Assembly: GCA_030673895.1 (NCBI GenBank)
Contig: JAUTCR010000002.1
Coordinates: 1 to 33,620, forward strand
DNA from: Verrucomicrobiota bacterium JB023
GTDB lineage: Bacteria > Verrucomicrobiota > Verrucomicrobiia > Verrucomicrobiales > Akkermansiaceae
DNA length: 33,620 nucleotides
Direction of reading: 5' to 3'
In this document: positions 14,599-17,879 of the stretch, piece after piece
Layout: every line of letters starts with the position of its first letter
How positions within the stretch are numbered: position 1 is the first letter of the stretch
The notes under the pieces: generated by a model
What the model was told of the DNA's origin: nothing
Seen by the model: only the letters and a program-made list of their open reading frames with translations
Databases searched by the model: none
Translations under genes and position numbers: made by a program

Positions 14599-15606
14599 AT
14601 GAACCGAAAACTAAAAAAGCCCGCTAAGACCGACCTCCTTGCCCCCTTCGCTTTGGTTCGCCCCCACCTTTCTGAGATTGAGAAGCTCCTCCGCGAACAG
14701 GTTGATTCCTTCGATCCCGGTGTTCAGCCCTACGTCGATTACGTTTGCGATACTGCGGGCAAGAGAATTCGCCCGGCCCTGGCCATCCTCACCGGTGGTG
14801 CTCTGGGCGATATCACTCCTGACCACCTGAAGCTGGGCAGCATTCTTGAGCTCATCCACATCGCCAGTCTCGTGCACGATGACATCATCGACGGTGCGGA
14901 TATCCGCCGGAAGGTGGCCACCCCCCACACCAAATGGGGTGAGGGACTTGCCGTGCTTCTGGGTGATGCCCTCTTCTCCCACGCACTCATGTTGAGCACG
15001 GAGTTCAACGACCTGCATCTCAGTCGAGGCATTGCGAAAGCCGCGCGGGAGGTCTGTGAAGGCGAAATCATCCAGACCCAGAGACGCTTTGACCTCACCT
15101 TGGGACGTAAGGATTACTTCCGTATCCTTGAGATGAAGACGGGCGCTCTCTTCGCCGCCGCCACCGGACTTTCGGCTTATCTAAGCGGGGCCGACGAAGA
15201 AACCGTCGAAGACCTCTACCAGTTCGGCCTTAAGCTGGGCACAGCCTATCAGATCTACGACGATTGCCTCGACTTGGTCGGCACCGAAGAGCAATTTGGA
15301 AAAACCCTCCGCACGGACTTGGAGAAAGGCAAACTCACCCTCCCCATTCTCCGCCTGCTGGAGACCGCCAGCCCATCCCAGCGTGAGAAGCTGCAGGAGC
15401 GCATCATCAAGCAAGAACCTCTGGACTTGCCCGTCCTAAGCGGCATCGCCGATTACGAAGGAGCCATCGATTACTCAATCGAGACCGCCGTCCGCCTTGT
15501 TGAGGATGCTCGCGACCCTCTGCACTTCCTCCCGGACAATCAATATCGCGACGCCCTCTTCACCCTCGCGAACTACCTTCTCGATCTCCTGCGCAAGCTT
15601 CGTTGA
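14599..15606 (+). CDS. Long-chain trans-polyprenyl diphosphate synthase
   Basis: A 335-residue enzyme of the IspA/IspB class that extends allylic diphosphates with isopentenyl diphosphate, most likely to make the side chain of a respiratory quinone. The first aspartate-rich motif is D94-D-I-I-D98 (LVHDDIIDGADIRRK) and the second D221-D-C-L-D225 (YQIYDDCLDL). GKRIRPAL and GKTLRTDLEKGKLTLP are also conserved. The residue five positions before the first motif is the small A89, which in this family permits long products; this argues for an octaprenyl- or similar synthase rather than a farnesyl synthase. It stands alone as a transcription unit, with a palindrome upstream and a strong terminator 35 bases downstream. 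Confidence 0.92.
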   Translation: MNRKLKKPAKTDLLAPFALVRPHLSEIEKLLREQVDSFDPGVQPYVDYVCDTAGKRIRPALAILTGGALGDITPDHLKLGSILELIHIASLVHDDIIDGADIRRKVATPHTKWGEGLAVLLGDALFSHALMLSTEFNDLHLSRGIAKAAREVCEGEIIQTQRRFDLTLGRKDYFRILEMKTGALFAAATGLSAYLSGADEETVEDLYQFGLKLGTAYQIYDDCLDLVGTEEQFGKTLRTDLEKGKLTLPILRLLETASPSQREKLQERIIKQEPLDLPVLSGIADYEGAIDYSIETAVRLVEDARDPLHFLPDNQYRDALFTLANYLLDLLRKLR

Positions 15607-15640
15607 GCAATTGCATCGCGATTAAGATACCTTAAAAACC

Positions 15641-15680
15641 AAGGGGACTGGAATCTTCGTCATTCCAGTCCCCTTTTCGT
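15641..15680 (+). terminator. Strong intrinsic terminator after polyprenyl synthase
   Basis: AAGGGGACTGGAAT (15641-15654) and ATTCCAGTCCCCTT (15662-15675) form a perfect 14-bp stem around the loop CTTCGTC, followed by TTCGTTT. The stem is also symmetric enough to act in both directions, but only the plus-strand gene ends here. Confidence 0.85.
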
Positions 15681-15825
15681 TTAAGATTTTTCTGCAAGGC
15701 CTTGGATTCGCCTTCTCGTCACGATCTTTTACAAAAATTCAGTCGGGCAATTCTGCAAGACTCGATATCACACGATTTACTCTTTCGTCCCTATCTTTGC
15801 AGGGAAAACTGGGCCCCGAAACGCG

Positions 15826-16314
15826 ATGCGATGCATTCAATGTGGCTCCATGAAGGACAAAGTCCTCGATTCCCGCCTCTCCAAGGACGGGACATCGATC
15901 CGGCGCCGTCGTGCCTGCTTGGAATGCGCCTACCGTTACACAACCTACGAAACGATCGAGCGTACCGAATTGCAAGTGGTCAAGAAGGACGGCACGAGAC
16001 AACCACTCGACCGCGAAAAGTTGACCCGCGGACTGGTCAAAGCCTGCGAAAAGCGTCCGGTCTCTCTCGCCCGCATCGACCGTGCCGTGGAGGAGATCCT
16101 CAGCGAACTCCACCGCGACAATCTCCCCGAACTCCCTTCCTCGATGATCGGAGCCAAGGTCATGGACAAGCTCCATCAAATCGATCCCGTCGCCTACGTC
16201 CGCTACGTCTCCGTCTACCGCGAGTTCGAAGACGTGGGCGAATTCATCGCCGAAATTCAAAATCTCACCAAGAACGCCAGACGTGACCCCCTCCAGCGGA
16301 AGTTCCCTATCTAA
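15826..16314 (+). CDS. nrdR: Transcriptional repressor NrdR
   Basis: NrdR represses ribonucleotide reductase genes in response to ATP/dATP. The 162-residue protein has the N-terminal zinc ribbon (C3, C6, C31, C34; MRCIQCG and ACLECAYRYTTYE), then the conserved VVKKDGTRQPLDREKLTRGL opening of the ATP-cone, ACEKRPVS and the AYVRYVSVYREF end motif. Length and order are normal. No ribonucleotide reductase gene is present and no convincing pair of NrdR boxes was found in the region directly upstream. A protein of unknown function follows after 24 bases. Confidence 0.96.
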   Translation: MRCIQCGSMKDKVLDSRLSKDGTSIRRRRACLECAYRYTTYETIERTELQVVKKDGTRQPLDREKLTRGLVKACEKRPVSLARIDRAVEEILSELHRDNLPELPSSMIGAKVMDKLHQIDPVAYVRYVSVYREFEDVGEFIAEIQNLTKNARRDPLQRKFPI

Positions 16315-16338
16315 TCTCTCGAAAGACTCTCTACCTGT

Positions 16339-16908
16339 ATGATCTGCCTCGTTGGAAATCGCCCCGTCCTGCAAGTAGGACGCTACCAAATAGCCGGTTA
16401 CGATACCGATTGGATCGAAACCGCGCTGCAACGGGCAGCGATTGCGGCAGACCGCGACGACTTCCCGTTCATCAATGATATCCGTGATGGCATCGTGCAC
16501 TACCTGGAGAATAAATGCCCGCTCCGGCTTCTTCCCATCGAGGAGCTCTACGCCCGCATGCAGCGAATGCTGGAACGAATCGGCTGTGAGGCCATCGCCA
16601 AGCAACTCTCCATCCTCACTCCCCCGGTCACTCTTTCCCTCGCCCGCTCCGCGCGCCAAGTCCCGGCAGGCTTTGAGCTCGGGTTCTTTCAGCGAATCAG
16701 GGACGAACTGGATGCCCTTCACCAACTCGGCACCGAAGAAGTCCACTTTACAGAGATTCGAGAAGCGACGCTGATCCTTGTCGGTTCAAAACGATGGTCG
16801 CCGACGTGCGAACATCTGATGGGCGAAATTCTCGCCTTCCTCCGAATGACTGCTGAGCAAAACTCAACTCCTGACAGTCAACTTTGTGTCACTCTGGAGG
16901 ATGCCTGA
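16339..16908 (+). CDS. Uncharacterised protein, possibly ATP-cone-like, downstream of nrdR
   Basis: A 189-residue protein of no family I can name. Its first 85 residues follow the spacing and residue pattern of an ATP-cone: a short beta start (VLQVGRYQIAGYD), a helix WIETALQRAA in the place of the DxxKLxxxLxRA helix, a middle helix IRDGIVHYLENK, and then IEELYARMQRMLERIG-CEAIAKQL, which resembles the V-x-x-L-x-x-x-G-x-x-x-A-x-x-Y end. The C-terminal half (about 95-180) is mixed alpha/beta with no recognised motif. It starts 24 bases after nrdR, so the two are probably co-transcribed. The ATP-cone assignment is an inference from pattern, without a profile search. Confidence 0.8.
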   Translation: MICLVGNRPVLQVGRYQIAGYDTDWIETALQRAAIAADRDDFPFINDIRDGIVHYLENKCPLRLLPIEELYARMQRMLERIGCEAIAKQLSILTPPVTLSLARSARQVPAGFELGFFQRIRDELDALHQLGTEEVHFTEIREATLILVGSKRWSPTCEHLMGEILAFLRMTAEQNSTPDSQLCVTLEDA

Positions 16909-17531: not shown

Positions 17532-17879
17532 ATGGCCGAAAAGTCACTATTCGAAAAAATCTGCGATAGAGAAATTCCTGCCGAAATCATCTACGAAGAT
17601 GAGCTCTGCCTCTGCTTCAAGGATATCTCCCCGCAAGCCCCAACACATCTGCTAGTCATTCCTAAAGAGCGGATAAATCGTTTGGCTGAAGCAACTTCCG
17701 ACCATCAGAATCTTTTGGGTCATCTCTTTGCAACGGTTCCTCACATCGCCAGGCAAGAAGGCTTTCTCGAGAGCGGCTTCCGCTGTGTCATCAATAGCGG
17801 TCCCGATGGCGGCGAGACCGTGCCCCACCTTCACATCCACCTTCTTGCCGGACGTAAACTGGAATGGCCTCCCGGCTAA
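17532..17879 (+). CDS. HIT-family (HinT-like) nucleotide hydrolase
   Basis: A 115-residue histidine-triad protein of normal HinT length. It starts FEKICDREIPAEIIYEDE, has THLLVIPK, and ends with the catalytic triad H99-L-H101-I-H103-L-L. HinT-type enzymes hydrolyse purine nucleoside phosphoramidates such as AMP-lysine; the exact cellular substrate is not known. It is divergent from the HTH gene across an AT-rich spacer of about 110 bases. The coding end and stop (PPG-stop) lie in the first copy of a 15-base direct repeat at 17867-17902. Confidence 0.93.
   Translation: MAEKSLFEKICDREIPAEIIYEDELCLCFKDISPQAPTHLLVIPKERINRLAEATSDHQNLLGHLFATVPHIARQEGFLESGFRCVINSGPDGGETVPHLHIHLLAGRKLEWPPG

Follow-up and report, generated by a model that had tools for sequence, protein, structure and literature searches.

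A gene kept beside nrdR encodes a diverged ATP-cone joined to a fragment resembling the class III ribonucleotide reductase core

Control of DNA precursor synthesis by NrdR is very widespread among bacteria. In the window, by which we mean the whole 33,620-nucleotide stretch of DNA that was analysed, nrdR is followed on the same strand by an unannotated gene, here called X. We asked what X encodes, how firmly it is tied to nrdR, and what it might do there.

The gene behind nrdR and its distribution

The features of the locus to which the text refers are as follows.

15826..16314, + strand: nrdR, ribonucleotide reductase (RNR) gene repressor with a Zn ribbon and an ATP-cone (TIGR00244, PF22811, PF03477)
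16339..16908, + strand: X, nrdR-linked protein of 189 aa with a diverged ATP-cone and a class III RNR core-like fragment (open reading frame, nrdR adjacency, purifying selection)
16354..16614, + strand: X residues ~6-92, ATP-cone fold in which the canonical triphosphate-binding basic residues are mostly lost (VIA-align, hhalign, residue counts)
16618..16905, + strand: X residues 94-189, a fragment similar to NrdD alpha/beta-barrel strands 6-8 (AlphaFold, VIA, hhalign)

The nrdR product matched TIGR00244 with 189 bits (E 3.9e-56), and the Pfam models for the Zn ribbon (PF22811) and the ATP-cone (PF03477) were both above their cut-offs. X gave no match to Pfam or NCBIfam up to E 10, TIGR00244 included, and neither X nor an X profile found anything meaningful among PDB sequences. 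A preliminary description of this DNA had placed a protein 24 bases after nrdR and had noted that it lacks the zinc ribbon, and both points held. X begins with ATG after 24 bases that separate it from the nrdR stop, and it is a real conserved gene; the window protein has no CxxC, and cysteine occurs in at least 15 of 32 X sequences at columns 3, 60, 83 and 157 only. Lacking the zinc ribbon, X therefore lacks an NrdR-type DNA-binding domain.

X is present in 33 of the 38 genomes of the window's order, the window genome counted, and both same-genus genomes (G001 and G002) carry it. Among 387 genomes of the phylum, full-length X was found in 47, every one from the window's class, and was absent from 340, genomes from many families of the same class among them. 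Together, the genomes with X represent 12 families of the class (f1, f2, f3, f5, f6, f10, f12, f15 and f19-f22), and the other families of the class gave no match in the 387-genome search. Save for four loci, all genome comparisons were made within the phylum. Alignment A1, which served for the PDB profile search and the phylum search, contained 27 rows, with eight loci excluded (L001, L003, L004, L008, L012, L016, L021 and L023); the later X and NrdR alignments contained 32 rows each and dropped L001, which is the window itself, and L031 and L032, which are the same contigs as L003 and L004.

The preliminary description had named an unconserved linkage to nrdR as grounds for refutation; the linkage is conserved. 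nrdR was the immediate upstream neighbour of X on the same strand at 34 of 34 loci (32 genomes without two duplicates) and again in 31 of 31 further X-bearing genomes, for a total of 63, with the reservation that two loci from another collection (L033 and L034) might repeat one of the 63 genomes. Coordinates placed the two genes side by side in 11 more genomes. Gaps between nrdR and X ranged from a 4-base overlap, seen at three loci, to 105 bases, with L025 left out as a read-through artefact. Other flanking genes were seen less often than nrdR: a HIT-like gene occurred at 23 of the 34 loci and a polyprenyl synthase gene at 10, in flanks of mostly 1.5 kb, and these labels, like that of an ABC-F gene, were assigned by eye. 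All 47 genomes with full-length X have nrdR, and none of the 23 nrdR-less genomes among the 387 has full-length X; G017 has neither gene. Six genomes of family f4, in the same order, have kept nrdR without X, which indicates that NrdR can function without it. At one locus of this family (L108) a HIT-like gene lies directly after nrdR.

The dN/dS ratio of X was 0.04-0.13 in 9 of 12 pairs, those with unsaturated dS, although three of the nine were near saturation (dS 1.6-2.1). For comparison, nrdR gave 0.05-0.07 in six pairs. The low ratios together with the wide occurrence show X to be a protein under purifying selection and not a chance open reading frame.

A diverged ATP-cone in the N-terminal half

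The preliminary description had recognized an ATP-cone pattern at the N-terminus of X and had looked to profile comparison and structure prediction for a check; both now bear the pattern out. An AlphaFold2 model built from five sequences (pLDDT 87) has the order hairpin-helix-helix-strand-helix-helix. Foldseek with the whole model placed two RNRs at the top, weakly (E 0.03-0.05). When Foldseek's 1000 best chains were realigned with VIA-align, the X cone gave Z 9.3-10.7 over 82-87 residues, and the eight best rows were NrdR, NrdA, NrdB or NrdD. The three best were NrdR chains, namely 9a6n_B at 10.7, which is an integrative model, 9gex_C at 10.2 and a third at 9.8; the RNR matches included NrdA (5im3_B, 9.7), NrdD (9d3x_A, 9.6) and NrdB (5olk_A, 9.3).

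Profile comparison agreed with the fold. In hhalign, the profile of 32 X sequences scored 33.2 (P 9.6e-6, probability 83%) against one of 21 non-NrdR cones; none of 150 column shuffles exceeded 17.1, and the reversed profile reached 13.7. These 21 cones remained after removal of three loci with short flanks (L048, L052 and L055) from 24; most lie in open frames of >1,000 aa that we presume to be RNR large subunits. The N-half scored 41.6 at the cone of a 28-row NrdD profile, where 100 shuffles reached no more than 19.6. The match to NrdR cones alone was not significant (14.3, P 0.069), and that to the pooled cone set was weak (16.9). X does not reach the PF03477 cut-off, which is a detection rule and not a biological trait. 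We conclude that residues ~6-92 of X are an ATP-cone, diverged, by both fold and homology.

A second group of proteins bridges the gap between X and recognized cones. Among the 18 weak matches of the phylum X search, 16 were open frames of 324-361 aa that belong to other classes of the phylum. Three of the eight that were scanned (L097, L100 and L101) passed the Pfam ATP-cone cut-off, and L101 lies directly behind nrdR. The N-domain of eight of these long forms matched X with P 2.5e-16 and cones with P 2.2e-8, so that it joins the two. Nine of the 16 are directly behind nrdR, two are ~2 kb away and five are in nrdR-free stretches; three genomes (G088, G251 and G352) have a long form and no detectable nrdR. 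A search with one long form, L099, against PDB sequences gave no match, and we found no published name for these proteins. Of the remaining two weak matches, L104 is a genuine NrdD, and L106:2748-4121 (458 aa, from G321) is a fusion of an ATP-cone with a uridine-kinase/PRK-like domain, in a genome without an NrdR match.

A C-terminal half resembling class III ribonucleotide reductase

The C-half of X had been described as unrecognised. That stands for Pfam and NCBIfam, and is revised by structure and profile, which liken it to the class III RNR (NrdD) core. In the whole X model, VIA-align matched the C-half to NrdD with Z 8.4 over 95 residues at 2.6 A. Modelled alone by AlphaFold (pLDDT 89), the C-half had NrdD chains of T. 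maritima, S. thermophilus and P. copri in every one of its 13 best VIA rows, with Z 7.0-9.5, 94-96 of 96 residues aligned and rmsd 2.3-2.7; the first row of another kind was Cdc48/p97 (Z 6.8, 3.7 A). By the tool's own warning, Z values below 8 may be common. A plain Foldseek search with the isolated C-half placed no NrdD among its 50 best chains (lowest E 0.16), which included RuvC, glycosidases and AAA proteins, and NrdD reached the top only after VIA realigned Foldseek's 1000 best chains.

Sequence profiles pointed to the same place. Against a 19-row NrdD profile, the C-half scored 36.7 in hhalign (P 7.5e-5, probability 62%), with a maximum of 23.9 in 150 shuffles. Against the 28-row profile, from which 20 of 48 rows had been removed as near-identical, it scored 34.0 (P 2.2e-4, probability 45%) with a second co-linear piece at 24.5; 100 shuffles reached 20.1 at most, and four other families 15.3. 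When NrdD was cut into 140-column pieces, the C-half responded only to those overlapping 416-541. Whole X ran co-linearly with the NrdD profile, with X 18-89 on 18-89 (P 6.3e-5), 97-130 on 416-448 (P 0.021) and 121-180 on 482-541 (P 0.0011). Taken one at a time, these profile matches are weak.

The structural match covers residues 369-499 of the T. maritima enzyme, 422-561 of that from S. thermophilus and 436-580 of that from P. copri, and the first two ranges begin at the NLPR strand of the NrdD alignments. According to the P. copri study (PMC11226230), Asn435 is on strand 6, a loop at 577-581 follows the third-last strand, and Cys416 and Gly711 are the radical residues. The P. copri range thus begins right after Asn435 and ends in the 577-581 loop, with Cys416 and Gly711 outside it, so what X retains is strands 6-8, without either radical residue. 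X stops at the equivalent of strand 8, nothing in it matches the region of Cys416 or Gly711, and neither Pfam NRDD nor Gly_radical matched it. The position of the NrdD Asn is Ser in 27 of 32 X sequences.

An alternative is that the N-half is an ATP-cone and the likeness of the C-half to NrdD is a chance beta-alpha-alpha arrangement with its true origin elsewhere, a reading compatible with any of the functional alternatives discussed below. The Foldseek top 50 speaks for it, as does the closeness of Z 7-9.5 to the level that the tool calls common, and the C-terminal ~220 aa of the long forms gave no profile match to NrdD or to the X C-half. However, the 13 best VIA entries are NrdD from three species, and structure and sequence profiles agree on one site in NrdD while the rest of NrdD is silent. 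We therefore regard chance likeness as unlikely, though a serious competitor, and an origin of the C-half in class III RNR as likely. Belonging to the class III core, for strands 6-8 only, is indicated by profile and VIA, whereas Foldseek alone does not show it.

Two other ideas about this half were set aside. A second degenerate ATP-cone was rejected: the C-half scored 10.8 against cones (P 0.25), and the two halves of X matched each other with P 0.03. The ends of the long forms and of X look alike by eye, and the idea that long forms retain the X C-half was dropped after profiles gave P 0.05 and no NrdD match. As a separate observation, Trp153 (29/32) and Cys157 (28/32), encoded at 16795-16809 of the window, are near-invariant in X, a degree of conservation compatible with a possible binding or redox role.

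The nucleotide pocket and possible roles of X

Work on S. coelicolor NrdR assigns the contacts with the inner nucleotide to K50, R51 and E56 and finds binding impaired when V48, K50, E56 or K62 is changed (PMC9110341). All 32 NrdR cones and all 21 other cones compared here have basic residues at the K50, R51 and K62 positions. At the equivalent positions X has a basic residue in 11, one and none of 32 sequences, respectively: the K50-like position holds Q in 17, K in six, R in five, L in two and E in one, with one gap; the R51-like position holds V or I in 31 and R in one; and the K62-like position holds W in 31. Alignment of the X hairpin is uncertain by one or two residues, but W25 sits at the better-aligned start of a helix. 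The pocket thus looks degraded, and, to judge from the residues at these positions, X may have lost nucleotide binding. The preliminary description had proposed that X senses ATP/dATP together with NrdR; such sensing finds no support here and appears doubtful, because two of the three canonical basic residues are lost and the third is kept in 11 of 32.

Our best guess is that X is a partner of NrdR. The ATP-cone fold and the conserved linkage support by context a role tied to NrdR, although adjacency is not proof of physical interaction. In two studies, NrdR acts by changing its oligomeric state via paired ATP-cones (PMC9110341, PMC12176259), and a cone protein made beside it would be well placed to join or block the pairs. 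We tentatively propose that X derives from an RNR of class III (NrdD) type, is no longer catalytic, and uses its cone and half-barrel to bind NrdR and shift its state; we prefer this proposal without being confident of it. An ancestral NrdD would have been reduced by internal deletion to the cone plus strands 6-8. X is probably co-expressed with nrdR on one transcript, as the short gaps suggest, and its cone and half-barrel would most likely bind NrdR and move it between DNA-binding and storage forms. The degraded look of the pocket makes a structural partner or titrating decoy more probable than an independent ATP/dATP sensor. The fuller version, in which an RNR lost all but its allosteric sensor and three strands of the barrel and was taken over as a dedicated partner of the RNR repressor, tuning dNTP synthesis transcriptionally, is possible, and we hold it with distinctly less conviction.

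The strongest competing idea is that X acts on the enzyme: the cone or half-barrel of X would dock on the large RNR subunit and inhibit or assemble RNR. Adjacency to nrdR would then reflect that both genes control RNR, and cones mediate RNR oligomerisation (PMC9110341). The X cone is also closer to non-NrdR cones (P 9.6e-6) than to NrdR cones (P 0.069), and some long forms occur without nrdR. Nevertheless, the gene constantly found next to X is nrdR, and the other cone-bearing gene of the window genome is on a separate contig, so we rate this rival as improbable, if a real contender. More doubtful is that X is itself an ATP/dATP sensor, a second nucleotide-reading cone working with NrdR. The fold and the linkage fit, as do K or R at the K50-like position in 11 of 32 and, by eye, K there in long forms L100 and L101; the V/I and W at the R51-like and K62-like positions (31/32 each) argue against it, with the proviso that the hairpin alignment is perhaps off by 1-2 residues. 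That X is a functionless, decaying NrdD relic would fit the missing catalytic part and its absence from f4 and from further families in the class, yet is very improbable given the dN/dS of the nine pairs, intact frames in 12 families and constant position.

An accessory role for NrdD also appears unlikely, since NrdD was undetected in the window genome and in ten further X-bearing genomes; other X-bearing genomes, those of genus g3 (probably Akkermansia) and G337, do have it. The class III RNR itself seems split at one locus (L153, in G099), where the main NrdD frame ends after a CxxC-type motif and the glycyl-radical segment is a separate open reading frame of ~64 aa that starts ~50 bases past the NrdD stop. 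A similar split is possible where two separate NRDD matches occur, in 10 of 10 g3 genomes and in G337, whereas the reading from sequence is for L153; in G104 both pieces are in one 832-aa frame.

Set against known systems, X shares with NrdR (TIGR00244) an ATP-cone and a gene neighbourhood; it differs in having no zinc ribbon, in giving no significant profile match to NrdR cones, and in the loss of most basic nucleotide-contact residues. With NrdD (PF13597) it shares an N-terminal cone followed by barrel strands 6-8, and unlike NrdD it has no flap, cysteine loop, specificity region or glycyl-radical domain. The long-form proteins resemble it in their homologous N-domain and frequent position behind nrdR and depart from it in their C-terminal region. 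The Leeuwenhoekiella NrdB (5olk) likewise has its cone joined to a protein that is not the RNR large subunit (cone Z 9.3). An ATP-cone-bearing NrdB has a full radical-generating domain, whereas X has none. We therefore class X as an ATP-cone homologue joined to a class III RNR-like fragment, and not as NrdR, NrdD or a canonical nucleotide-binding cone. Entry 9a6n, by its title, models NrdR in contact with a second protein, Soj. In the open-licence literature searched, we found no cone protein beside nrdR; the parts of X are known, and their combination, the nrdR link and the spread were not found there. If our reading is true, X would be a dedicated partner of NrdR or of RNR in 12 families of one class and would clearly exemplify the conversion of an enzyme into a regulator of the pathway it belongs to. 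The finding offers a testable role for an unannotated gene.

We also searched for candidate NrdR-box pairs, using a consensus and no shuffled control. At the set score none was found in window 15400-16400 or in L035, which holds the genome's own RNR-type cone gene; the best pair was at L038 (26/32), and L022, L025, L014, L026, L029 and others gave weaker ones (20-23). Finally, a HIT-family-like open reading frame (17532-17879) comes after X in the window, and in some loci such a gene possibly shares one transcript with X.
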